Shown here: positions 2 to 34,560 of the stretch, one piece after another
Layout of the letters: each line of letters starts with the position of its first letter
Position numbering within the stretch: the stretch's first letter is position 1
Source: Deltaproteobacteria bacterium
GTDB lineage: Bacteria > Myxococcota > Myxococcia > SLRQ01
DNA: 35,858 bases
Direction: 5' to 3'
NCBI GenBank assembly: GCA_029210625.1
Contig: JARGFU010000040.1
Coordinates: 1-35,858, forward strand
Notes under the pieces: model-generated
Database searches by the model: none
What the model saw: only the letters and a program-made list of their open reading frames with translations
What the model was told of the DNA's origin: nothing
Translations under genes and position numbers: made by a program

Positions 2-3000
2 AACGTGATCAACGCCGCCGGCACGATCATCGTCGACCGGGAGGCCCCGGTCGGCTCGATGATCATCGACGGCGGGGCCGCTTACGCGACCGGCGCGTCG
101 GTGGTGCTCACCTTCACCGCGCCGGCCGACACGGCCGACGTGCTCGTCTCCAACAGCCCCATCGCCGACTGCGGCACGGCCACCGGCTACGTCGCCTTCG
201 CGCCCTCCCGGTCGTGGACGCTCACCACCGGCGACGCCACCAAGACCGTCCACGCCTGCCTGCGCGACGCCGCGGGGAACACCTCCCCGGTCCAGGACGA
301 GATCATCCTCGACACCACCGATCCCACCGGCGGCAGCGTGGCCATCGACGGGGGCGCCGCCTACGCCACGAACACCCCGGTGACCCTGACGATCACCGCC
401 GACGCCGACGTGACCCACATGGCCGTGGGCAACGGCGCCCTCGACTGCGCCACCGCCACCTACGAGCCCTTCGCCAGCGTGCGCTCCTGGGTCCTGACCG
501 CCGGCGACGCCACCAAGACCGTCACGGTCTGCTTCCGGGACGCCGCCCGCCGGACGGGCAGCGCGTCGGACACGATCGTCCTGGACACCACCGTCCCCGC
601 CGGCTCGATCACCCTCGACGCCGGCGCGGCGGTCACCGACACCCTCACGGTGGCGGTCGACCTCGGCTACGCCAGCGACACCGCCGGCTACGCCCTGGCC
701 AACGGCGCCCTCGACTGCGGCGTCGCCACCTACACCGCCGCCACCGGCACGAGCCTCTCCACCACCTGGAGCCTCCCCTCGGGTGACGGCGTGAAGACCG
801 TGGTGGCCTGCTTCCGGGACAGCGCGGGCAACACCGCCTCCTACGCCACGACCATCACCCTCGACCAGACCGCCCCCGCCGGCTCCCTGACCATCGACGC
901 GGGCGCCACCTACGCGACGGCCCTCGGCGTGCAGCTCGGCGTCAGCGCGCCCAGCGACACCGCCTCCATGACCTTCTCGAACACGGCGATCGCCGACTGC
1001 GACGCCGCCACCGGCTGGCAGGCCTTCGCCCCGAGCCGGGCCTGGACCCTCGCCGCCGGCGACGGCACCAAGACCGTCCACGGCTGCCTGCGCGACGCGG
1101 CCGGCAACACCTTCGCCGTCCAGGACGAGATCGTCCTCGACACCACGAACCCCACCGGCGGCAGCGTCAGCATCGACGGCGGCGCCACCTACACCACCTC
1201 CACCCCGGTGACCCTCTCCATCGTGGGCGACGCCGACGTGACCTTCATGGCCGTGGGCAACGGCGCCCTCGACTGCGCCACCGCCACCTACGAGCCCTTC
1301 GCCAGCGTGCGCTCCTGGGTCCTGACCGCCGGCGACGCCACCAAGACCGTCACGGTCTGCTTCCGGGACGCCGCCCGCCGGACGGGCAGCGCGTCGGACA
1401 CGATCGTCCTGGACACCACCGTCCCCGCCGGCTCGATCACCCTCGACGCCGGCGCGGCGGTCACCGACACCCTCACGGTGGCGGTCGACCTCGGCTACGC
1501 CAGCGACACCGCCGGCTACGCCCTGGCCAACGGCGCCCTCGACTGCGGCGTCGCCACCTACACCGCCACCACCGGCACCAGCACCTCGACCACCTGGAGC
1601 CTGCCGGCCGGCGACGGCGTGAAGACCGTGGTCGTCTGCTTCGAGGACCAGGCCGGCAACGCCGCCTCCTACGCGACCACCATCACCCTCGACCAGACCG
1701 CGCCCGCCGGCGCCCTCTCCATCGACGACGGCGCGGCCTACACCGACGGCGTGGCCGTGCAGCTCGGCGTGACCGCCCCGGGCGACACGGCCCGGATGAC
1801 CTTCTCGAACACGGCGATCGCCGACTGCGACGCCGCCACCGGCTGGCAGGCCTTCGCCCCGAGCCGGGCCTGGACCCTCACCACCGGCGACGGCACCAAG
1901 ATCGTCTACGGCTGCCTCGAGGACGCCGCCGGGAACACCGCCGCGATCCTCGACCAGATCGTGCTCGACACCGCGGCGCCCGCCGGCACCGTCACCCTCC
2001 AGGGGGACCACGCCGGCTACACCCTCGCCGGCAGCGGCGCCGGCTACTCCTTCTCCACCGCGATCCAGGCCCTGCTCTCGGCGCCCACCGACACCCTGGA
2101 GGTCGCCCTGGGCGACGGTCCCACGCTCGACTGCAACACCGCCACCTATCAGGCCTACGCCGGGGTGATCCCCCGGACCCTGCCCGCCGGTGACGGCTCG
2201 AAGGACATCAGCGTCTGCTTCAAGGACGCCGCCGGGAACACGGCGAGCACCAGCGCCGCCATCAAGCTCGACACCGTGCCGCCGACGGCCGGCCTCAGCC
2301 TCGCGAGCGGCGCGTCCTACACCACCTCCCCCACCGTCTCGGTCGCGCTCACCTTCCTCGACGACACCAGCGGCTACGCCCTGGCCGAGTCGTCCCTCGA
2401 CTGCGCCGGCGCCACCTACACCCCGGTGAGCGTCGGGCTCACCTCCGCCTCGACGAGCTTCACCTTCTCCGCGGGGGACGGCACCAAGACCGTCGTCGCC
2501 TGCGTCCGCGAGGCCGCCGGGCGGGTCGCCTCCACCTCGAGCACCATCGTCCTCGACACCGTCCTGCCCACCGGCACGGTCACCATCGACGACGGCGCGA
2601 CCTACGCCACGAGCACCACGGCCTCCCTGCGCTTCGTCGTCCCGGCCGACACCCTGCGGATGTCGATCGCCAACGCCGCGACCCTCGACTGCGCGACGGC
2701 CACCTACGTGGGCTTCTCCTCCCCCTTCACCTGGTCCCTCTCCGCGGGCGACGGCCTGAAGACCGTCACGGTCTGCTTCGAGGACGCCGCCGGGAACCGG
2801 GACAGCGCCAGCGACACGATCACCCTGGACACCGCGAACCCCACCGGCTCGATGACCATCAACGCGGGCGCGACCCACACCCAGACCACCTCCGTGGTCC
2901 TCGACTTCACCGCCGCCGCCGACGTGACCGGCCTGGCGGTGCGGGAGGCCGCCACCCTCGACTGCGCCACCGCGGCCTACCAGCCCTACACCCCCTCGAT

Positions 3001-6000
3001 GGCCTTCACCCTCTCGGCCTCCGCCGGGAGCAAGAACCTGGTGGCCTGCTTCCAGGACGCCGCCGGCCGCACCGGCACCACCTCGGCGAGCATCATCCTC
3101 GACGCCTCGAGCCCCTCGGGCACCATCACCCTGGCCGGCGGCGCCGCCTACACCACCGGCACCACGGTGGCCGTGGCCCTGACCTTCCCCAACGACACCA
3201 CGGGCTACGCCCTGGGCGACGGCGTCATCGACTGTGACGCCGCCACCTACACCCCGGTCACGGTCGGCAACACCTCGGCCAGCACGACCCACTCCCTGCC
3301 GGGCGGCGACGGCACCAAGACGGTCTCGGCCTGCTTCACCGACGCGGCCACCAACACCGCCTGGAGCGCCGACACCATCATCCTCGACACGGCGCCGCCC
3401 TCCGGGACGGTCGCCATCGATCTCGGCGCCACCTACAACACCACCGGGACCTCGAGCCTCACCTTCTCGGCCCCCTCCGACACCACCGAGATGGCCGTGG
3501 TGAACGGCGCGACCATCAACTGCGGCACGGCGACCTACCAGGGCTTCGCCTCCCCCCTGGCCTGGCCCCTGCCCGGCGGTGACGGCACCAAGACCGTCAG
3601 CGTCTGCTTCAAGGACGCCGCCGGCCTCACCGCCAGCGCCCAGGACGCCATCGTGCTCGACACGACGGATCCCGCCGGCTCCCTGGCGATCCAGGGCGAC
3701 ACCAGCGGCTACACCCTGGTGGCCCCGGCCGCCGGCTACACCTTCTCGCCCAGCGTGAGCCTGGCGCTCTCCGCCCCGCCGGACACCACGAGCCTGGCCA
3801 TCGCCAACGGCGCGACCATCAACTGCGGCGCCGCCGCCTACCAGCCCTTCGCCAGCCTCGTCGCCCACACCCTCCCGGGCGCCGACGGCAGCAAGAGCGT
3901 CAGCGTCTGCTTCAAGGACGCGGCCGGCCGCACCAGCAGCACCACCGACTCCATCACCCTCGACACCGCTCCTCCGACCGGCTCGGTGAGCCTCGACGCG
4001 GGCGGCACCTACACCGCCGACCTCTCGGTCGCGGTGGGCCTCTCCTTCCTCGCCGACACCAACGGCTACGCCCTGGCCGAGAACTCGATCGACTGCGCCA
4101 GCGCCACCTACACCGCGGTCACCGTGGGGAACACCTCCGCCTCGACCTCCTTCACGATCTCGGGCGGTGACGGGATGAAGACCGTCGTCGCCTGCATCCG
4201 CGAGGCCGGCGGCCGGGCCGCCATGGCCCAGGACACCATCCTCCTCGACGCCAGCGCGCCGGCGGGAAGCCTCAGCATCGACAACGGCGCGATCTACGAC
4301 ATCGACGGCAGCGTCACCCTCACCTTCATCGCCCCGGCGGACACCGCCGACCTGGCGGTGGTCGACGGCACCGCCATCAACTGCGGCACCGCGACCTACC
4401 AGGCCTTCGTCTCCTCCCTGCCCTGGACCCTGCCGGGCGGCGACGGCACGAAGACCGTGAGCGTCTGCTACCGCGACGGGGCCGGCAACGCCGCCTCGAC
4501 CTCGGACTCGATCATCCTCGACACCTCCAGCCCGACCACGGGGACGGTGAGCATCGCCGCGGGCGCCACCTACACCACCGGCGCGGTGGTCAGCCTCGAC
4601 CTCACCGCTCCGGCGGACGTCGCCGAGGTCGCCATCGCCAACGGCAGCCTCGACTGCGGCACGGCCAGCTACGGCGCCTTCACCACGCCGCGCACCTGGG
4701 TGCTCTCCGCCGGCGACGGCGGCAAGACCGTCACCGCCTGCTTCCGGGACGCCGCCGGCCGCACCGGCTCTGCCTCGGACACCATCACCCTCGACACCCT
4801 GGCCCCGAGCGGCATCGTCACCCTGGCCGGCGGCAACACCTACGCCACCGGGACCCCGCTGGCCGTCTCGCTCTCCTTCCCCAACGACACCGCGGGCTAC
4901 GCCCTGGCCGAGGGCTCCCTCGACTGCGCCGCCGCCACCTACACCAGCGTCACCCTCGGTGACACCGCCGCCAGCACCACCTTCCCGCCCTCCATCGGCG
5001 ACGGGGTGAAGACGGTCGTCGCCTGCTTCCTGGACGCCGCGGGCAACCGCAGCTCGGCCGTGGACACGGTCACCCTCGACACCTCGCCGCCGGCGGGCGC
5101 CGTCGCCATCGACGCGGGCGCCACCTTCGCCACCTCCACCGGCGTCACCCTGAACCTGGCGGCCCCCTCCGACACCACCCTGATGGCGGTGCGGGAGACC
5201 GCCACCATCGACTGCAGCGACGGCACCCTGGTCTGGGAGGCCTTCGCCACCACCAAGGGCCTGACCCTGGGCGGCCAGGGTACCCGCACGGTCAGCGTCT
5301 GCTTCGAGGACGCCGCGGGCCTCCGGGCGAGCGCGATGGACAGCATCGTCGTCGACTCGGTGGCGCCGACCGGCTCGGTGCTCATCAACAACGGGGCCTC
5401 CCACACCCAGGCGACCTCGGTCACCCTCGACATCACCGCGGCGGCGGACGTGATCGCCCTCGCCGTGGCCGACGGCGGCTCGATCCTCTGCAGCAGCGCG
5501 ACCTACGAGCCCTTCTCGGCGGCCCGGGCCTGGACCCTGCCCGCGGGCGAGGGCAGCAAGACCGTCAGCGTCTGCCTCAAGGACGCCGCCGGGAACACCG
5601 CCTCGGTGAGCGACGCCATCACCCTCGACTCCACCGCGCCGACCACGGCGAGCCTCACGATCGACGCCGGCGCCGCCTACACCACCGCCTCGAACGCGCA
5701 GGTCACCCTCACCTTCTCCACCCCCGAGACCGTCACCGTCGCCTACGGCAACGAGTCGATCGACTGCGCCGGCGCCACCTACGGCGCCTTCGCCAGCCCG
5801 GTGAACAACCACCCCCTCCAGGACCAGGACGGCGTGCGCACGGTGGTGGCCTGCTTCAAGGACGCCGCGGGCTGGATCGTCTCCAAGAGTGACAGCATCA
5901 TCCTCGACCGCACGCCTCCGGCGGGCACGGTCGCCATCAACGGGGGCACCACCTACGCCACCTCGACCGGCGTGACCCTGAACCTCAGCGCGCCGGGCGA

Positions 6001-9000
6001 CGCCAATCAGATGGCGGTGCGCGAGACGACCAGCATCGACTGCGCCGACGGCACCCTGGTCTGGGAGGCCTTCGCCACCACCAAGGGCATCACCCTCGGC
6101 GGCCAGGGTACTCGCACCGTCAGCGTCTGCTTCAAGGACGCCGCCGGCCTGACCGCCAGCACCTCCGACGCCATCATCGTCGACTCGGTGGCCCCGACCG
6201 GCTCGGTGGCGATCGACAACGGCGCCTCGCACACCCAGACCGCCGCGGTGGTCCTCGACATCACCGCCGACGGGGACGTCACGGCCATCGCGGTGGCCGA
6301 CGGCGGCTCGCTCGTCTGCACCAGCGCGACCTACGAGCCCTTCTCCGCGGCGCGGGCCTGGACCCTGCCCGTCGGTGAGGGCAGCAAGACCGTCAGCGTC
6401 TGCCTGAAGGACGCCGCTGGCAACTCGGTTCGGGTCACCGACTCGATCACCGTCGACACGGTCCCGCCCTCGACGGCCACCCTCCAGATCGACGGCGGCG
6501 CGGCCTACACGACGCTGACCACGGCCCAGGTGACCCTCACCCTCACCACCCCCGAGACCGTGACCGTGGCCATCGGCAACGAGTCCATCGACTGCGCCAG
6601 CGCCACCTACGGCGCCTTCGCCGGCACGGTGAACAACTGGCCCCTCCAGGATCAGGACGGCGTGCGGACCGTGGTCGCCTGCTTCAAGGACGCCGCCGGC
6701 TGGATCGTCTCCAAGAGCGACGACATCATCCTCGACCGCGCCGCGCCGACCGTGGGCCTGACCATCGATGGTGGCGCCCTCTACACGACCGACGACCTGG
6801 TCGACCTGGCCATCACCGCCTCGGGCGACGTGTCCCAGATGTCGGTGAAGCTGGGCCTCCCGATCATCGACTGCGGCACGGCCTCCTACGTGCCCTTCAC
6901 CCCCTCGGTGGCCTCCTTCGACCTGGACCCGACGGACTCGAATCCGGACGGCTGGAAGTACGTCTCGGTCTGCGTCGAGGACGGCTCGGGCCAGCAGACG
7001 AAGGCCTACCGCAGCATCTACCTGGATCGTACCAACCCCACCGGCACCCTCGTGCTGGCCAACGGGGCCTCCCACACCAACGAGCGCAACGTGAGCGCGC
7101 AGATCCCCGCTTACTCCACGGATGTCACCCAGATGGCGGTGGCCGAGGGGTCCATCGACTGCGCCAGCGCGAGCTACTCGAGCTTCAACAACAACTTCCA
7201 GTTCATCCTCTCCGACAGCGACACCCTGCACACGGTGCTCGTCTGCCTGAAGGATCGCTCGGGAAGAACGGCCCAGATCTCGGACACGATCACCCTCGAT
7301 CGGAGCGCCCCCGGCGGCGCCCTCTCCATCAACGCCGGCGCCACCTGGAGCACCGTCCTCTCGGTCACCGCGACCATCACCAGCGCCGACGCCGCCTTCT
7401 ACGCCTATGCGGCCGAGACCATCGACTGCACCGCCGCGACCTACCAGGCCTTCTCGAGCCCCGAGACCCCGACCCTCGACCTGGTCGACAGCGACGGCAC
7501 CCGCAGCGTGGTGGCCTGCCTGAAGGACACGGCCGGGAACATCGCCACGGTCAGCGACACCATCAACCTCGACACGACGCCGCCGGTGATCATCAGCTTC
7601 ACGCGGGACGAGCTCTACTCCCAGGATGACAGCAACGACTTCACCCTGACGGCCTCGGACAACCTGTCCCTGAGCCAGATGCGCTACGCCCAGTACTCCA
7701 GCGGCGCCGGCGGCGTCTGGGAGGCCTTCGCCACCGACAAGACCTGGGACGTCAACGGCGCCTCCGCCAACACCTCGGGCATCTACTACACCTACGCCTG
7801 GGTCCGGGATGCCGCCGGGAACGTGAGCACCTCCCGCTACGCCTACACCTACACGGACTACCACGACCCCTCGATCACCAGCTTCACCGTGACCGACAGC
7901 GCCGGGACGACCCTGAGCGGCGGCACCGCCGACGACACGCTGGTCGTCATCAAGACCACCGTGCTCGAGCAGTACTTCGGGTGCAACTCCTACTGTCAGA
8001 TGCGCATCGGCGAGAACCCGACCCTCGCCGGGGTCGCCTGGCAGTCCTACGACTCCAACGCGAACTACATCCTCTCGGCGGCGAACGGCCCCAAGACCAT
8101 CTACGTCCAGGTGCAGGACCGCAGCGGCCGGGTGAGCACCATCGAATCCCAGACCCTGGACCTCGACACCCAGGCCCCGACCGTCGTGTCGCTCGAGGCA
8201 ACGAACCCGGTCGACATCTACACCAACAGCACCTCGGTCACGGTGGACATCACGGCCGACGACAACCTCTCGGTCGGCACCGATCTGGTCGCGGCCGTCG
8301 GCATCTACGGAACCGGGTTCACCTGCTCGAACGGCACCTACAGCTACCCCTTCCCGGGGAGCTGCACGGCCCCCCCCTGCACCCTCAGTCACACGACGAC
8401 CATCCCGCCGACCCTCGGTGGAAAGTACGTCCTCGCCTGCGTCGAAGACGCCGCCGGGAACAGGTCCGCCTCGTATCGCTACGCGTACGTCTACTACGAC
8501 AACGTCGTTCCCTCTCAGGTCACGGGCCTCTACCTCTCTCCGGGTAGCCGACAGATGACCGTCTCCTGGGCCACCGCGACCGACGCCAACTCCGGGGTGG
8601 ACCACTACCAGGTCCAGTACTCGACCAGCTCGGCCTTCGCCGGCGCGACCACCATCAACGTCGAGACCCCCACCGCCCTCATCGAGGGCCTCGACAACCT
8701 GGTCCCCTACTACGTGCACGTCCGGGCCGTGGACAAGGCGGGCAACTACGGCGCCTGGTCGGGCGACGAGTCGACCGTCCTGGGCATCGGTGTGAGCGCC
8801 GTCGGCCCCGAAGAGTACGATCGGGCCGGCGAGCGACCGACCCTCCTCTATGACGAGGGGATCCTCTGGGTCTTCGCCAAGACGCGCTACTACCCCACCA
8901 CGAACGCGGACGATCGGCAGGCCTTCCGCATCGGCCGCTGTGAGGCCGCCACGCTCGACTGCAAGAAGCCGGCGAACTGGACCTGGTTCACCGAGTACCC

Positions 9001-11428
9001 CGGCTACCGCTACATCTCCTCCGAGCGGCCCTCGGTGGTGGCCACCCAGGACGCGATCCTCGTGGCCAGCACGCAGGAGGACATCACCTCCGGCAACGTC
9101 GGTCAGTACATCATGTACTGCCGGAAGACCTCGGACTGCGCCTCCACGAGCGGCTGGGGCACCATGCAGCTCGCCGCCCCGGACGCCCTGAACCGGGATG
9201 GCTCCCTGAGCCTGGCGATGACGACCACCCACGTCGTCGCCGCCGCGCTCGTGGACGACGCCACGGACGTGCTGCGGATCTGGAGCTGCGAGCTCGGCTC
9301 CACTGACTGCACGACCGCCACGGACTGGTCCGCCACCCCCATCGACATCACCAACCCGATCGCCGGCCCGGTGAGCCTGGCCCCCGCCATGGTCGCGGAC
9401 GAGCGCTACGTCTGGATCATCCATCCCCAGGCGACGCTCACGGGCTGTCCGCTCTCGTGCCTCGCGAACGCCACGCTACGGGTGACCCGCTGTGACACCC
9501 GCACCGCCTCCGCGACGAGCGCCTGCGCGACGAGGACGACCAACAACATCGCGACCGCGAGCGCCTACTTCATGGACATGGATGCGACCATCGCCGATGG
9601 CACCATCTACGTGACCTACCGGACGCTGGAGGCGAGGAAGGCCGGCGTGAACGATCAGGAGATGCGCCGCTGCGCCCTCTCCTCGACCGGGGGATGCAGC
9701 GCCGGCGCGGACTGGTCCTCGGCGGGCATCTGGGCCAGCAACGTGAGGTACCCGGGGGGCGAGACCGGCACCCTCGACCTCGAGGGGGCCCCCGGGCAGC
9801 TCCACCTCACCCTCTGGGACCCCGACACCCAGTCCATCGAGTACCAGGTCTGCGAGAACCCGAGCAGCACGAACTGCACGATCCCGGGGAACTGGAGCGC
9901 CTTCCCCGTCCAGAACTACCAGACGACCTACTCGGCCCCGAGCCTGGAGGTCTACGGCACCAACATCGGCCTCACCTGGCTGAACCCCGATGACCACTTC
10001 ACCGTGGCGCTCCCCCGGGTCCCCTCGCCCCACGAGGACGCGTCCGTCGGCGGAGGGCTCGCGGAGCTCCGCGCCGGCTGGACCCCGAACCTGGAGGTCG
10101 CGGGGAACACGGTCGTCTACGCTCCGGGCGCCACCACGAACTGGCAGAGCCAGATCAACATCACCGATCCCTACCAGAGCATGACCTCCGTTCCCCTGAC
10201 CGCCGGGTCGAGTTACACCGCGGCGCTGCGCTCCTACTCCGCCCTCGGTGAGCCGTCGTCCGACTCGCGTCCCTTCCTCTTCAGGCCGCTGGCGGATCAG
10301 GGACCCGACCAGACGCTCCCCGACTCCGCCGCCTACGTCACCCGCTGGAGCAGCTACGGCGGTGGCCGGATCGTCCAGGCCTACACGGAGAACTACAACG
10401 TCGTCGTCGAGTGGTGTGCACCCTCCACCAGCAACTGCGCCATCTCGACCAACTGGACGAGGACCGTCGCCATCGGAACGGTCACCAACGTCACGCGCTT
10501 TGACGTGGAGACGGACGGCACCTACATCTTCGTCGTCGGATCCGACTTCGGTGACGGCTGGGTCAGCCGCTGCTCCTGGAGCTCCGCGTGCAACGCGGAC
10601 AGCGACTGGACCACCGAGTACCACTTCAGCACGAACCTCACCTACCCCCGGATCTCGATGGGCGCCGGGAAGCTCTGGGTCTTCTACATGAACCTCGCCG
10701 CCGTGGGCGGGCAGACCGCCTATGACCTATCGCTCGCCTTCTGCGACTACGCCACCTGCAACTCGACCTGGTACAACGTGCCCGTCACCACCGGCATCAG
10801 CGGCTTGGTCTACGGGTTCGACGTCGACGCGAGCGACCCCCGGATCGGCCTGGTCTACGAGGACAGCAACGACAACATCTATTACGACTACTGCCTCGCG
10901 GGTGCGGGGACCTGCGCCTTCTACGGGGCCACTCTCATCGCAACGGCACCCGCCATGGTCAGGCACTCGCTCAGGCTCGAGGTCGACGACGACGCCAACC
11001 ACCTCAATCGATCGGCGGTGACCGCGGCCTGGGGCGGAGAGCTCCACCTCCTGACCTGCCCCTTCGAGCCCTTCCAGTGCAACGACGGAACCAGCCGCTG
11101 GAATCACCTGACCCTGGGCCGGGCGGCCACGAAGGAACAGGAGAACAACTCGGAGGTCACCTTCGGGCCCGGCGAGTCCTACTTCGTCTTCAACACGGTG
11201 CGGGATCAGATCGTCCTCAACCGCTGCGACGACGACTGCTTCCTCATGAGCAACTGGAGCTCGCAGGCCGTCTACGACGCGGCCGGGCTGCAGGAGCCCT
11301 TCGAGAACTACTCGAACTCGGCCGTCGACCCGGCCACCGGCAGGTTCTACATCGGCAACACCACCCCCTCGGGGACCACGGACTTCGTCCTCCGCCTCCT
11401 GGGCGACGGTCTCTACGAGCCGCAGTAG
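2..11428 (+). CDS. Giant Ig-like repeat surface protein with FN3 and propeller-like C-terminus (5' partial)
   Basis: The frame is open from the window edge, so the N-terminus and signal peptide are outside; about 3,808 residues are visible. Residues 1 to about 2830 are some 30 modules of about 92 residues, each opening with a D-x-x-x-P-x-G type junction and running through 'GA-x-YTT', a 'DC-x-x-ATY' strand, 'GDG-x-KTV' and 'V-CF-x-DAAGN'. Two Cys per module at fixed sites suggest one disulfide each in modules 1-27. A fibronectin III module starts near residue 2835. The rest has twelve C-x(n)-C-x(n)-W motifs in two sets of six, separated by an FN3-like linker. Bacterial Ig-like tandem arrays are known in adhesins and cell-surface fibres; a secreted or surface role is inferred. 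No catalytic motif was recognised. The frame is uninterrupted over 11.4 kb. Confidence 0.9.
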   Translation, partial: NVINAAGTIIVDREAPVGSMIIDGGAAYATGASVVLTFTAPADTADVLVSNSPIADCGTATGYVAFAPSRSWTLTTGDATKTVHACLRDAAGNTSPVQDEIILDTTDPTGGSVAIDGGAAYATNTPVTLTITADADVTHMAVGNGALDCATATYEPFASVRSWVLTAGDATKTVTVCFRDAARRTGSASDTIVLDTTVPAGSITLDAGAAVTDTLTVAVDLGYASDTAGYALANGALDCGVATYTAATGTSLSTTWSLPSGDGVKTVVACFRDSAGNTASYATTITLDQTAPAGSLTIDAGATYATALGVQLGVSAPSDTASMTFSNTAIADCDAATGWQAFAPSRAWTLAAGDGTKTVHGCLRDAAGNTFAVQDEIVLDTTNPTGGSVSIDGGATYTTSTPVTLSIVGDADVTFMAVGNGALDCATATYEPFASVRSWVLTAGDATKTVTVCFRDAARRTGSASDTIVLDTTVPAGSITLDAGAAVTDTLTVAVDLGYASDTAGYALANGALDCGVATYTATTGTSTSTTWSLPAGDGVKTVVVCFEDQAGNAASYATTITLDQTAPAGALSIDDGAAYTDGVAVQLGVTAPGDTARMTFSNTAIADCDAATGWQAFAPSRAWTLTTGDGTKIVYGCLEDAAGNTAAILDQIVLDTAAPAGTVTLQGDHAGYTLAGSGAGYSFSTAIQALLSAPTDTLEVALGDGPTLDCNTATYQAYAGVIPRTLPAGDGSKDISVCFKDAAGNTASTSAAIKLDTVPPTAGLSLASGASYTTSPTVSVALTFLDDTSGYALAESSLDCAGATYTPVSVGLTSASTSFTFSAGDGTKTVVACVREAAGRVASTSSTIVLDTVLPTGTVTIDDGATYATSTTASLRFVVPADTLRMSIANAATLDCATATYVGFSSPFTWSLSAGDGLKTVTVCFEDAAGNRDSASDTITLDTANPTGSMTINAGATHTQTTSVVLDFTAAADVTGLAVREAATLDCATAAYQPYTPSMAFTLSASAGSKNLVACFQDAAGRTGTTSASIILDASSPSGTITLAGGAAYTTGTTVAVALTFPNDTTGYALGDGVIDCDAATYTPVTVGNTSASTTHSLPGGDGTKTVSACFTDAATNTAWSADTIILDTAPPSGTVAIDLGATYNTTGTSSLTFSAPSDTTEMAVVNGATINCGTATYQGFASPLAWPLPGGDGTKTVSVCFKDAAGLTASAQDAIVLDTTDPAGSLAIQGDTSGYTLVAPAAGYTFSPSVSLALSAPPDTTSLAIANGATINCGAAAYQPFASLVAHTLPGADGSKSVSVCFKDAAGRTSSTTDSITLDTAPPTGSVSLDAGGTYTADLSVAVGLSFLADTNGYALAENSIDCASATYTAVTVGNTSASTSFTISGGDGMKTVVACIREAGGRAAMAQDTILLDASAPAGSLSIDNGAIYDIDGSVTLTFIAPADTADLAVVDGTAINCGTATYQAFVSSLPWTLPGGDGTKTVSVCYRDGAGNAASTSDSIILDTSSPTTGTVSIAAGATYTTGAVVSLDLTAPADVAEVAIANGSLDCGTASYGAFTTPRTWVLSAGDGGKTVTACFRDAAGRTGSASDTITLDTLAPSGIVTLAGGNTYATGTPLAVSLSFPNDTAGYALAEGSLDCAAATYTSVTLGDTAASTTFPPSIGDGVKTVVACFLDAAGNRSSAVDTVTLDTSPPAGAVAIDAGATFATSTGVTLNLAAPSDTTLMAVRETATIDCSDGTLVWEAFATTKGLTLGGQGTRTVSVCFEDAAGLRASAMDSIVVDSVAPTGSVLINNGASHTQATSVTLDITAAADVIALAVADGGSILCSSATYEPFSAARAWTLPAGEGSKTVSVCLKDAAGNTASVSDAITLDSTAPTTASLTIDAGAAYTTASNAQVTLTFSTPETVTVAYGNESIDCAGATYGAFASPVNNHPLQDQDGVRTVVACFKDAAGWIVSKSDSIILDRTPPAGTVAINGGTTYATSTGVTLNLSAPGDANQMAVRETTSIDCADGTLVWEAFATTKGITLGGQGTRTVSVCFKDAAGLTASTSDAIIVDSVAPTGSVAIDNGASHTQTAAVVLDITADGDVTAIAVADGGSLVCTSATYEPFSAARAWTLPVGEGSKTVSVCLKDAAGNSVRVTDSITVDTVPPSTATLQIDGGAAYTTLTTAQVTLTLTTPETVTVAIGNESIDCASATYGAFAGTVNNWPLQDQDGVRTVVACFKDAAGWIVSKSDDIILDRAAPTVGLTIDGGALYTTDDLVDLAITASGDVSQMSVKLGLPIIDCGTASYVPFTPSVASFDLDPTDSNPDGWKYVSVCVEDGSGQQTKAYRSIYLDRTNPTGTLVLANGASHTNERNVSAQIPAYSTDVTQMAVAEGSIDCASASYSSFNNNFQFILSDSDTLHTVLVCLKDRSGRTAQISDTITLDRSAPGGALSINAGATWSTVLSVTATITSADAAFYAYAAETIDCTAATYQAFSSPETPTLDLVDSDGTRSVVACLKDTAGNIATVSDTINLDTTPPVIISFTRDELYSQDDSNDFTLTASDNLSLSQMRYAQYSSGAGGVWEAFATDKTWDVNGASANTSGIYYTYAWVRDAAGNVSTSRYAYTYTDYHDPSITSFTVTDSAGTTLSGGTADDTLVVIKTTVLEQYFGCNSYCQMRIGENPTLAGVAWQSYDSNANYILSAANGPKTIYVQVQDRSGRVSTIESQTLDLDTQAPTVVSLEATNPVDIYTNSTSVTVDITADDNLSVGTDLVAAVGIYGTGFTCSNGTYSYPFPGSCTAPPCTLSHTTTIPPTLGGKYVLACVEDAAGNRSASYRYAYVYYDNVVPSQVTGLYLSPGSRQMTVSWATATDANSGVDHYQVQYSTSSAFAGATTINVETPTALIEGLDNLVPYYVHVRAVDKAGNYGAWSGDESTVLGIGVSAVGPEEYDRAGERPTLLYDEGILWVFAKTRYYPTTNADDRQAFRIGRCEAATLDCKKPANWTWFTEYPGYRYISSERPSVVATQDAILVASTQEDITSGNVGQYIMYCRKTSDCASTSGWGTMQLAAPDALNRDGSLSLAMTTTHVVAAALVDDATDVLRIWSCELGSTDCTTATDWSATPIDITNPIAGPVSLAPAMVADERYVWIIHPQATLTGCPLSCLANATLRVTRCDTRTASATSACATRTTNNIATASAYFMDMDATIADGTIYVTYRTLEARKAGVNDQEMRRCALSSTGGCSAGADWSSAGIWASNVRYPGGETGTLDLEGAPGQLHLTLWDPDTQSIEYQVCENPSSTNCTIPGNWSAFPVQNYQTTYSAPSLEVYGTNIGLTWLNPDDHFTVALPRVPSPHEDASVGGGLAELRAGWTPNLEVAGNTVVYAPGATTNWQSQINITDPYQSMTSVPLTAGSSYTAALRSYSALGEPSSDSRPFLFRPLADQGPDQTLPDSAAYVTRWSSYGGGRIVQAYTENYNVVVEWCAPSTSNCAISTNWTRTVAIGTVTNVTRFDVETDGTYIFVVGSDFGDGWVSRCSWSSACNADSDWTTEYHFSTNLTYPRISMGAGKLWVFYMNLAAVGGQTAYDLSLAFCDYATCNSTWYNVPVTTGISGLVYGFDVDASDPRIGLVYEDSNDNIYYDYCLAGAGTCAFYGATLIATAPAMVRHSLRLEVDDDANHLNRSAVTAAWGGELHLLTCPFEPFQCNDGTSRWNHLTLGRAATKEQENNSEVTFGPGESYFVFNTVRDQIVLNRCDDDCFLMSNWSSQAVYDAAGLQEPFENYSNSAVDPATGRFYIGNTTPSGTTDFVLRLLGDGLYEPQ
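418..739 (+). repeat. 322-bp perfect direct repeat, copy 1
   Basis: Identical to 1246-1567 at an offset of 828 bp, covering most of modules 2 and 3. Identity ends with mismatches at 416-417 and at 740. A second exact block, 968-1051 against 1796-1879 (84 bp), has the same 828-bp offset. Confidence 0.9.
1246..1567 (+). repeat. 322-bp perfect direct repeat, copy 2
   Basis: Second copy of the block at 418-739. Even synonymous sites are identical, so the copy is recent or kept alike by gene conversion. It is also a likely site of short-read assembly collapse. Confidence 0.9.
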
Positions 11429-26760: not shown

Positions 26761-27171
26761 CTAGACCCCCTCGCCCCCCAGCTTCACCCGCAGGGACCCT
26801 GTCAGCTCCGGAGGCAGGGTCGCCGCGACCTTCCGGGCCAGGCTCCGCAGCGAGAGCCGGTTGGGGCAGCGCTGCTCGGCCTGATGATCCACGCAGGAGC
26901 AGAGCGCCTCGACCTCGGCCGGCGTCAGCTGGAGGGAGAGCCCCCGGGTGAGCCCGCTGAAGTTCAGGTTCATCACCCGCCAGCGGACGTTCCGGCCCTC
27001 GCGTTCCTGCACCAGGGGGACGCCCGCGCGATCGAGGACCTCGAGGTCCCGGTAGACGGTCCTCACCGAGACGCCGAGCAACTCGGCCAGGTCCTGGACG
27101 GTCTGGCCGCTCTTCTTCTCGAGCAGGGTCAGCAGGATCTTCCACTGTCTCGTGAACTGATCGCCTCGCAT
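26761..27171 (-). CDS. Truncated HTH (DeoR/WYL-type) regulator without WYL domain
   Basis: 136 residues. Residues 1-68 match closely the N-terminus of the neighbouring WYL regulator (both start MRGDQ-x-TRQWK and share VSVRTVYRDLEVL), so this is an HTH DNA-binding domain of the HTH_11/DeoR type. The linker domain continues to about residue 135 (LTPAEVEAL, LARKVAATLPPEL), but the WYL ligand/effector domain is absent and the gene ends at TAG 26761. The linker has a Cys/His group absent from the paralogue: C91, C93, H96 and C102. Whether this binds metal is speculation. GGAGAG precedes the ATG and an 11-base G tract lies 7 bases upstream. Confidence 0.83.
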   Translation of the reverse strand: MRGDQFTRQWKILLTLLEKKSGQTVQDLAELLGVSVRTVYRDLEVLDRAGVPLVQEREGRNVRWRVMNLNFSGLTRGLSLQLTPAEVEALCSCVDHQAEQRCPNRLSLRSLARKVAATLPPELTGSLRVKLGGEGV

Positions 27172-27233: not shown

Positions 27234-28295
27234 TCAGTCCTCGCGAACCTCCTTGCTCTTTCGGGTGCGGCTGCGGGCGGCCATCTCCCGCCTCCCCCGG
27301 ACGCGCCGCTCCCGGGGCGGGGGCGCGTAGCGGCGCAGCAGCTCGCGGGCCTCCTCGGCGAAGGCCTTCACCAGGGCGGCGGGCTTCACCACGGTGAGGG
27401 CGGGGCCGAAGCCGCGCAGCCAGGCCCGCAGCTCGGGGGTGTCCACCACGTCGAGGTGCAGCTCGACGCCCCCCTCGTGCTGGCGCAGCTCCTGGGAGGG
27501 GTGCCAGCGCCGCTCTCGCGCCAGGTGGGCGATGCCCTCGTCGAGCATGGCGACGAGGTGGATGCGATGACCGCCTCGATAGATCGCGAAGGCGTCCGCG
27601 AAGTAGGCGTCGAGATCGAAGCCCCCCTTGGGCTCGAAGCGCTCCTCGAGGATCTCGACCTTCTGGATCCGATCCACCAGGAAGGTGCGCACCTCTCCGC
27701 GCTTCGCGTCGTCGGCGATGAGGTAGAGCCCGCCGTCGTGGAGGTGCAGCCGCAGGGGCTCGACCAGCCGCGGGCCGGGCTTCTTCTTCCCGGGGGTGGC
27801 GTAGATCATCATCAGCCGCCGCCGCTCGCAGAGGGCGCGCCCCACCGTGGCCACGACGCCGGGCCGGGTCGCCGAGCCGCTGCGGCCACGCTCGGAGGCG
27901 CTGACCACCTCGAGGTGCTCGCGCAGCCGCTCGAGGAGCTTGCCGGGCACCGCGGCCCGCACCTTCTCCAGGGCCGCGCGCAGCCCCTCGGACCAGGGGT
28001 CGCTGCCCCGGGCGTCGAGGAAGTCCCCGGCCACGTGGAGCGCCACCACCTCGTCGAGGGTCAGCGGGACGCCCTTGCTCCAGGGGCAGTCCCCGGCGAG
28101 CCGCCAGGAGACCTCGGCGCCGTCGCGCTCGGCGACCATCGGCACGCCCACGTCCTGGAGCACCTCGAGGTCCCGGTAGACCGTCCGCACCGAGACCTTC
28201 AGCTCGGCGGAGAGCTCCCCCACCGTCGCGCCGGTGCGCCGCTTCTCGAGCATGGCCAGGAGCTTCCACTGCCGGGTGAGCTGATCGCCACGCAT
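27234..28295 (-). CDS. WYL-domain transcriptional regulator
   Basis: 353 residues. HTH at about 1-68 (VSVRTVYRDLEVLQD), a linker domain, then the WYL region (about 150-235) with CERRRLMMIYATPGKKK, PLRLHLHDGGLYLIADDAKRGEVRTFLVDRI and the downstream Phe/Asp-rich DLDAYFADAFAIY; the C-terminal WCX-type domain follows, with a basic tail. The usual family length is about 320-350, so the protein is complete. WYL proteins are repressors or activators sensing nucleic acid or small ligands. The ATG lies 4 bases beyond the stop of the predicted outer-membrane protein gene, so both should be made from the same mRNA. A truncated paralogue lies downstream. Confidence 0.92.
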   Translation of the reverse strand: MRGDQLTRQWKLLAMLEKRRTGATVGELSAELKVSVRTVYRDLEVLQDVGVPMVAERDGAEVSWRLAGDCPWSKGVPLTLDEVVALHVAGDFLDARGSDPWSEGLRAALEKVRAAVPGKLLERLREHLEVVSASERGRSGSATRPGVVATVGRALCERRRLMMIYATPGKKKPGPRLVEPLRLHLHDGGLYLIADDAKRGEVRTFLVDRIQKVEILEERFEPKGGFDLDAYFADAFAIYRGGHRIHLVAMLDEGIAHLARERRWHPSQELRQHEGGVELHLDVVDTPELRAWLRGFGPALTVVKPAALVKAFAEEARELLRRYAPPPRERRVRGRREMAARSRTRKSKEVRED

Positions 28296-32572: not shown

Positions 32573-32589
32573 CCGAACGGTGTTCGGAA
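32571..32589. promoter_or_regulatory. TetR operator 1
   Basis: TTCCGAACGGTGTTCGGAA: perfect 8-base arms around GGT. It overlaps the tetR -10 and start site, which fits autorepression. Confidence 0.85.
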
Positions 32590-32602
32590 AGAAGATGAGA
32601 GC

Positions 32603-33199
32603 TTGAGCCCCCGCCGCAAGAAGCCCGACCCCGAGAAGGTCCGCGAGGAGATCCTCGCCGCGGCGCGGGCGCAGGTCTCCGAGGGGGGCCCCGAGGGCCT
32701 CTCGCTGCGCGGGGTGGCCCGGGCGGTGGGCTACAGCCCGGCGGGCCTCTACGAGTACTTCGACTCGCGGGACGCCATCCTCGAGGCCCTCGCCCGGCGC
32801 GCCTCGGCCTCCCTGACCCGGGCCTTCATCGAGGGGCGGGGCAAGGCCCCCGACGAACCCCCGCTGGTGGCCCTCGGGCTCGCCTACCTGCGCTTCTCCC
32901 GGGAGAACCGGGAGGACTTCGCCCTCCTCTTCCAGCGCCTGCGCTCCACCCGCCGGGGTCTCGAGGCGCCGGTGGGCACCGACTCCTCCTACGCCCTGCT
33001 GCGCGCGGCGGTGGAGGAGGCCCGGGAGGCGGGCACCCTCGACGGGGCCGCCGATCCCGACGCCGTCGCCTACGCCTTCTGGTCCCTGGCCCACGGCATG
33101 GCCACCCTCCAGGCCGGCCACCTGCAGGGCTTCGACGCCGACTTCGAGGCGGCCGACCGGGCCGCCCTGCGCGCCCTGCTGGCCGGCTTCTCCGCCTGA
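32603..33199 (+). CDS. TetR/AcrR family regulator
   Basis: 198 residues with a basic N-terminus and a TetR HTH (about 17-62): EEILAAARAQVSE, GLSLRGVARAVGYSPAGLYEYFDSRDAIL. The C-terminal helices would hold an effector. TTG 32603 is the likely start; no ATG or GTG occurs earlier in frame within the leader. A three-codon ATG frame at 32595 ends with a TGA sharing TTGA with it. The HTH recognises presumably the palindromes at 32571-32589 and 33217-33235, so the gene is predicted to repress itself and the downstream lnt-like gene. The signal is unknown. Confidence 0.92.
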   Translation: MSPRRKKPDPEKVREEILAAARAQVSEGGPEGLSLRGVARAVGYSPAGLYEYFDSRDAILEALARRASASLTRAFIEGRGKAPDEPPLVALGLAYLRFSRENREDFALLFQRLRSTRRGLEAPVGTDSSYALLRAAVEEAREAGTLDGAADPDAVAYAFWSLAHGMATLQAGHLQGFDADFEAADRAALRALLAGFSA

Positions 33200-33210: not shown

Positions 33211-33235
33211 TTCTAACCCCGAACGGTGTTCGGAA
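33211..33235 (+). promoter_or_regulatory. TetR operator 2 with -10 of lnt-like gene
   Basis: The operator at 33217-33235 (CCCCGAACGGTGTTCGGAA) has 17 of 19 bases identical to operator 1. TTCTAA at 33211-33216 can serve as -10 directly before it, the same arrangement as upstream of tetR. GGGAG lies 8 bases before the ATG at 33255. A T7 run at 33203-33209 after the tetR stop has no GC stem. Confidence 0.75.
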
Positions 33236-33254
33236 AAAACACGGGAGCAAGACC

Positions 33255-33880
33255 ATGAGACGAGAGCACCTCCTCCTTCCCCTGGGCATCACCCTCCTGG
33301 CCGCCGCCCACCTGCGCTGGGGCGTCGATCTGATCGCCTGGCTCGCGCCGGTGCCCCTCGGCCTCCTCCACGCGCCGGCCTACCTGCTGGTGGAGCCGGC
33401 GCGGCGGGCTACACCCAGCTCCACTCCCCGGTCCTGCTGCAGAGCGTCTCCCTCTTCGGGATCGCGGGCCTCTCCTTCCTCGTCTCCTGGGGGGCCTCGA
33501 TCCTCGCGGCGAGCCTGGCCCGGCGCCGCCTCGCCCGCCGCCCCGCGCTCACCTTCGCCGGGGTGCTCGCTGCGGCGCTCCTCTTCGGCGCCCTGCGTCT
33601 GGCCGCCGCGGGCGAGGGCGGCTACGCCCTCCTGCGCCCCACCCGCTTCGGCCTCTCCGCGGGCGTCGACGCCCACGGCCGGGTGCGCGGGCAGGCCAGC
33701 GCCTTCGACGCACCGGAGACGGTGCTGATCGTCGACCTGCCGAGGCGCGGCGTCACCACGCTCTACGCGCGGGCGCCCTTCCTCTTCCCCCTGGCCTGCG
33801 CCCTGCTCGTCCTCTCCGCGCTCCTGCGCGAGGCCTGGCGCGCCCTCCGCCGCCGGCGCGCGCTGCCCGCGGTGGCCTAG
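33255..33880 (+). pseudogene. lnt: Collapsed apolipoprotein N-acyltransferase (Lnt-like) gene
   Basis: The frame from ATG 33255 starts like an Lnt N-terminus (LGITLLAAAHLRWGVDLIAW, LAPVPLGLL). Near 33395-33407 it moves to another frame that continues GYTQLHSPVLLQSVSLFGIAG, LSFLVSWGASIL, similar to the Lnt segment around its sixth helix. It then passes through another hydrophobic stretch straight to LRPTRFGLSAGVDAHGRV and LIVDLPRRGVTTLYAR, which resemble the end of the Lnt nitrilase domain (RxTNTGxSAxxDxxG and TxYxRxGD). The total of about 208 codons compares with about 510 in Lnt, and the part that normally carries the catalytic Glu/Lys/Cys is missing. I infer two internal deletions plus a frameshift; an assembly deletion is possible. 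It is under TetR operator 2 and ends on the SRAP gene. Confidence 0.7.
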
Positions 33881-34560
33881 GAGAGCGCGCCCTGGAGGGG
33901 CTGGATCAGCTTCTCGTCGTCCTCGGCCACCCGGCCGACGCGGGCATCGACCGGGTAGGCCTCGAGCCCCTCGCGGGGCCCGAGGAGCGCGCCGGCCTCG
34001 TCCCGGCTGCGCTGCGGGTCGAGCCAGGCGCCGGCCTCGGACCAGGGCAGGAGGGCCGGCATCCGATCGTGGATCTCGGCGATGTCGGCGCCGGGCGCGG
34101 TGGTGAGGATCACGGCCACCGCGCCGAGCTCCTCCTCCCCATCCCAGGGGCGCCAGAGGCCCGCCATGGCGAGCGGGATCCCGTCCGGATCATGCAGGGC
34201 CATGGGCTGCTTCTTCTTCTGGCCCGGCACCTTCTTCCACTCGTAGTAGCCCCAGGCCGGGAGGATGCAGCGCTGCCAGCCGCTCTTCCAGTAGGAGCGC
34301 CCGCCCCCCAGCCACTTCTCGGCCTGGGCGTTGATCAGGAGCGAGCGGGCCCAGTCCGGCTGCACCCCCCAGCGCAGCTCGGCGAGGTGCACCTCGTCCG
34401 CGGCGCCGCCGGTGGCGCTCCCCGGGCGCAGGACCGGCACCGGGGTGGCCGGCGCCACGTTGAAGCGCGCCCGCGGCTCGACCTCGAGGTGCAGGGGCAT
34501 CGAGAGGAGGTCGTGGATCTCCGCCCAGGAGAGCTCACCGGTGATGTAGCGGCCGCACAT
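33877..34560 (-). CDS. yedK: SRAP domain protein (YedK/HMCES-like)
   Basis: 227 residues. Catalytic Cys2 in MCGRY, Asn34 in FNVAP, NAQAE (about 77), Glu107 in GYYEW and His164 in HDRMP are all present, the signature of SOS-response-associated peptidases that form a DNA-protein crosslink at abasic sites through Cys2. The length is as expected. The stretch after NAQAE (KWLGGGRSYWKSGWQRC) fills the usual phosphate-binding loop. Its stop overlaps the stop of the convergent lnt remnant: the palindrome CTAG at 33877-33880 gives TAG on both strands. The -10 TAGATT lies 9 bases upstream of its ATG. Confidence 0.95.
   Translation of the reverse strand: MCGRYITGELSWAEIHDLLSMPLHLEVEPRARFNVAPATPVPVLRPGSATGGAADEVHLAELRWGVQPDWARSLLINAQAEKWLGGGRSYWKSGWQRCILPAWGYYEWKKVPGQKKKQPMALHDPDGIPLAMAGLWRPWDGEEELGAVAVILTTAPGADIAEIHDRMPALLPWSEAGAWLDPQRSRDEAGALLGPREGLEAYPVDARVGRVAEDDEKLIQPLQGALS

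Follow-up and report, generated by a model that had tools for sequence, protein, structure and literature searches.

A probable recent pseudogene in a Myxococcota genome: remnants of a second Lnt-like membrane nitrilase linked to a regulator gene

The window analysed here, the whole 35,858-nucleotide stretch of contig JARGFU010000040.1 from a Deltaproteobacteria bacterium (phylum Myxococcota), carries at positions 33255-33880 the start, a TM6-TM7 part and the end of an Lnt-like gene in the right order, with the middle absent and one frame change near 33405. We consider the locus to be probably (at a probability of about 0.65) a pseudogene, recently inactivated, that derives from a second Lnt-like membrane nitrilase of a regulator-linked kind, as it has lost both its reading frame and its functional residues when compared with intact relatives. 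The remnants, which like the sites described below are on the + strand, are flanked on one side by an intact tetR-family regulator gene (32603-33199; Pfam TetR_N 1.6e-12, TetR_C_33 1.1e-10) and on the other by a SRAP gene on the opposite strand (33877-34560).

Remnants of the Lnt-like gene

From the ATG at 33255, frame 0 encodes MRREHLLLPLGITLLAAAHLRWGVDLIAWLAPVPLG..., which matches the N-terminus of Lnt-like relatives. This first remnant covers the TM1-TM2 region up to APVPLG (33255-33362), reaching an E-value of 8.4e-6 when a profile of the more similar relatives was run against all six frames of the window, and about 41-56% identity over 27-35 aa in pairwise comparison with seven relatives. 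When trained on the remaining genes of the window, codon statistics favour frame 0 as far as about 33404 and frame +2 beyond it, placing the switch at about 33393-33407 with no stop codon between, and homology resumes at GYTQ. Compared with the intact relatives, some 90 codons are absent between the N-terminal piece and GYTQ, together with the frame change. The short piece LLHAPAYLLVEPARR (33363-33404), for which codon usage likewise favours frame 0, finds its best ungapped match in the same helix of three relatives (compare PLALTGLVVYLTWDWLRR; p = 0.026, 0.066 and 0.20). This is no more than suggestive of an origin in a later helix. If so, a further in-frame deletion would lie at about 33348-33362, and what we treat as one join within 33348-33407 may thus be two. 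The profile match itself aligns GLPAGGAGAAGYTQ in frame +2 as a homologous run-up to this segment, a reading that conflicts with the codon usage, which points to frame 0 as far as about 33404, and was rejected on that ground.

In frame +2 the coding sequence picks up at about 33407 with GYTQLHSPVLLQSVSLFGIAGLSFLVSWGASIL...GALRLAAAG, which corresponds to the stretch directly preceding the nitrilase domain. It is followed without a gap by EGGYALLRPTRFGLSAGVDAHGRV...TTLYA, corresponding to the nitrilase domain's end and TM8. The TM6-TM7 remnant (33407-33618, up to RLAAAG) is matched by TIGR00546 (1.6e-6), by LNT_N (0.00088) and by the profile of relatives (46.8 bits), while the final portion of the nitrilase domain together with TM8 (33619-33880, with the stop codon at 33878-33880) gives profile scores of 47.4 and 57.6 bits. 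Against all six frames of the window, a profile built from relatives only matched the frame +2 piece with an E-value of 3.8e-26 and nothing else below 1, and the profile of the more similar relatives gave a total E-value of 8.4e-28. The two profiles are covered at positions 151-235 and then 445-526 of 533, and at 165-243 and then 432-511 of 516, respectively. The match of the window pieces to Lnt-like relatives is not due to chance.

The jump in the relatives-only profile from position 235 to 445 falls at an in-frame junction (33612-33621). By arithmetic on the match coordinates, the spacing between the two frame +2 segments is 645 bases longer in five Myxococcaceae genomes than in the window, and 654 bases longer in one further genome (G004), where the match extended further. 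The window gene therefore lacks, in frame, about 210 codons that would encode almost the entire nitrilase domain. Together with the approximately 90 codons lost with the frame shift before TM6, the total loss comes to about 900 bases or 300 codons, the size given in the preliminary description of the locus. The catalytic triad of Escherichia coli Lnt is E267, K335 and C387 in the nitrilase domain (PMC8048626), and the Glu, Lys and Cys catalytic motifs of the intact relatives all fall in the stretch missing from the window. The eight-helix membrane domain of Lnt is also incomplete, with the TM2-to-TM6 stretch largely absent, as judged from helices assigned by alignment and reading. What is left has kept conserved family residues, and its third-position GC content (GC3) is 0.97-0.99 in the frame +2 remnant and at least 0.89 in the respective frames of all remnants. 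The preliminary description, made from the sequence letters, had proposed Lnt-like segments of the start, sixth helix and end in succession, a missing middle with the catalytic residues, and a single frame change, and each of these proposals is borne out by the profile matches, the collinearity with relatives and the codon-frame switch.

The tetR gene and its operator-like sites

An exact 18-mer near-palindrome, CCGAACGGTGTTCGGAAA, occurs upstream of both tetR (32573-32590) and the broken gene (33219-33236). These two matches in the window compare with none in 100 shuffles, and the 13-bp near-palindromic core of the site has no further exact occurrence in the 6.1-Mb genome. A sigma-70-like promoter of tetR (TTGACG-17-TATATT) ends directly before the first site, which follows immediately on the -10-like hexamer TATATT. 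We infer from this arrangement that the TetR protein would repress both its own gene and the Lnt-like gene. The preliminary description had credited the broken gene with a regulated promoter and a Shine-Dalgarno sequence. This stands in part: the operator-like site is present, and a ribosome-binding-like GGGAG can be read from the sequence at 33243-33247, 7 bases before the ATG, but the promoter search called no sigma-70-like promoter at the second site. The layout resembles that of a TetR-family local repressor acting on a neighbouring gene, with an intact tetR and the same operator-like site before itself and the next gene, although here the neighbour is broken and the regulation is putative.

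Decay, assembly loss or a surviving product

Of the three options raised in the preliminary description (recent decay, a surviving membrane-only product, or pieces lost in assembly), recent decay fits best and the membrane-only product is the weakest. In the proposed sequence of events, the ancestor would have been a gene of about 500 codons, comprising the membrane part and the nitrilase domain, placed behind tetR with the same operator-like site before both. Subsequent losses would have removed about 90 codons between TM2 and TM6, shifting the frame, as well as about 210 codons that made up almost the entire nitrilase domain. Deletion between short GC-rich repeats is the probable mechanism; a search of the remnant for direct repeats revealed no clear scar of this kind. 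The present product, if any, would be a peptide of 157 residues, in which one or two helices are followed by a tail read out of frame. Since the remnants keep both a coding-type GC3 composition and conserved family residues, the inactivation is probably recent. Two points count against a pseudogene. Two or three deletions with almost no other visible damage are unusual for slow neutral decay, and the one other genome of the family that was searched gave no close relative of the locus against which the timing or the ancestral sequence could be compared.

The same coincidence of several neutral deletions in otherwise undamaged remnants speaks for the strongest alternative, namely that the real gene is intact and that two or three stretches were left out in assembly where strong GC hairpins or repeats occur. 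At both joins the folding of the DNA is stronger than that of shuffled sequence (z about -2.4 and -2.3), as this alternative would have it, though such folding fits genuine hot spots of deletion just as it fits loss during sequencing or assembly. Against it, codon-frame analysis found no second clear frame break inside any gene of the 35.9-kb window, an analysis that is blind to in-frame losses; as this is the only such break, a generally bad assembly is not the cause, and the damage looks recent and local. The assembly statistics are also good (64 contigs, 98% complete, 0.07% contamination), and chimeric reads would be required for about 630 contiguous bases to drop out in frame. Nor was the missing nitrilase domain recognised elsewhere in the genome, where CN_hydrolase has six matches: the canonical lnt (contig 30) and five further genes with open frames of 305-669 aa, which the family profile matches only weakly. 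We therefore regard assembly loss as a possible but clearly less probable explanation, and infer that the deletions are real.

A functional membrane-only product, either a membrane peptide of some use or an inhibitor acting on Lnt-like enzymes, would account for the retention of tetR, the operator-like site and the ribosome-binding-like site, and for the removal of the nitrilase domain in frame such that TM6, TM7 and TM8 share one open frame. The reading frames argue against it. The frame opened by the ATG at 33255 leaves homology after about 51 codons and stops at 33728, while the TM6-TM8 frame has no ATG, GTG or TTG before the GTG at 33563 and no visible ribosome-binding site, and inspection of the join revealed no recognisable slippery site. 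The shortened form was also not seen among relatives of the frame +2 piece in 195 genomes of the phylum, where the open frames are at least 518 aa except at contig ends. Such a product is accordingly improbable, and a more elaborate version, in which a TetR-controlled, catalysis-free membrane protein is maintained, with expression by frameshifting or internal initiation at GTG 33563, and inhibits Lnt-like enzymes or serves as a decoy for them, appears even more so.

A second Lnt-like group distinct from housekeeping lnt

The search for an intact lnt elsewhere in the genome, suggested in the preliminary description, was successful. The canonical lnt lies on contig 30 in an open frame of 581 aa and scores 278 bits against TIGR00546, compared with an equivalog cut-off of 132.9, whereas the window remnant scores 27.6 bits (1.6e-6). 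Two intact relatives of the window gene, scored as whole proteins, reach 103.8 and 124.5 bits, also below the cut-off, and in five genomes the canonical lnt and a member of the second Lnt-like group are both present. The lnt-like identity first proposed for the locus thus holds as Lnt-like homology, while the gene, as far as its homology tells, derives from a second Lnt-like paralogue of the regulator-linked kind and not from the housekeeping lnt. It shares with Lnt a recognisable TM6-TM7 region but differs in falling far under the equivalog cut-off, in lacking the catalytic domain and in having the true lnt elsewhere in the genome. The matches of the window pieces to LNT_N and TIGR00546 are what a remnant of the housekeeping lnt itself would also give; with that gene intact on contig 30 and the pieces matching a group whose intact members score below the cut-off, this origin is very unlikely. 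Because the canonical lnt is intact, lipoprotein N-acylation should not depend on the broken gene. A chance resemblance of some other membrane family, conceivable for short hydrophobic segments, can be dismissed almost outright given the total E-value, the collinear order and the additional match of the non-membrane segment EGG..LLR...S...D..GRVRG.

Intact relatives of about 500-540 aa were found in Myxococcaceae, in Anaeromyxobacter and in metagenome-assembled genomes (record titles Neomarinimicrobiota, Sericytochromatia, Deltaproteobacteria and Myxococcaceae). They carry LNT_N and CN_hydrolase (CN_hydrolase 1.9e-21 and 3.3e-11) and have Lnt-like Glu, Lys and Cys motifs. A search of genome contigs with the alignment as query gave 13 relatives, compared with no match when the fused fragment was the query. 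In one other genome of the same family (85% complete), the locus was not found with the C-terminal part, the TetR or the DNA as queries, an absence that proves little; the same genome gave no TIGR00546 match above the cut-off, which may reflect incompleteness alone.

The kept parts of the window gene are collinear with this second paralogue (LNT_N plus CN_hydrolase, as at loci L022, L031, L075 and L081), with the same segments, order and end region, and differ from it in the absence of about 300 codons including the catalytic residues and in the frame shift. The adjoining regulator is a further likeness: the window gene has tetR upstream, and the relatives have TetR upstream at L073, L075, L078 and L081, PadR at L022 and L072 (in Myxococcaceae), and a divergent MarR gene at L080. 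The group thus repeatedly adjoins transcription regulators of varying family and scores below the Lnt equivalog cut-off. Searched with tblastn at 1e-3, the window TetR had no match in the loci of the relatives, and therefore the pairing of an Lnt-like gene with a regulator seems to recur with different regulators. Judged by titles, the literature searches turned up no description of such a second Lnt group and nothing relevant on lnt pseudogenes.

A broken accessory gene matters little by itself and is an ordinary find. The locus nevertheless draws attention to a second kind of Lnt-like enzyme, linked to regulators and present in Myxococcota and some other phyla, that can be mistaken for housekeeping lnt in automatic annotation, and this intact group is a more interesting lead than the broken gene.

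Other observations in the window

Two adjacent genes on the - strand (26761-27171 and 27234-28295) have like starts (MRGDQ[FL]TRQWK..., HTH_11). The second encodes a full WYL/WCX regulator, and the first, of 136 aa and without a WYL or WCX domain, is possibly a truncated tandem duplicate of it. At the other end of the window, a giant open frame of 3807 aa (5-11428, + strand), which begins at or before the contig end, contains many similar repeats (DAAGNT...DTTxPTGS...) and is likely to encode a repetitive surface protein.
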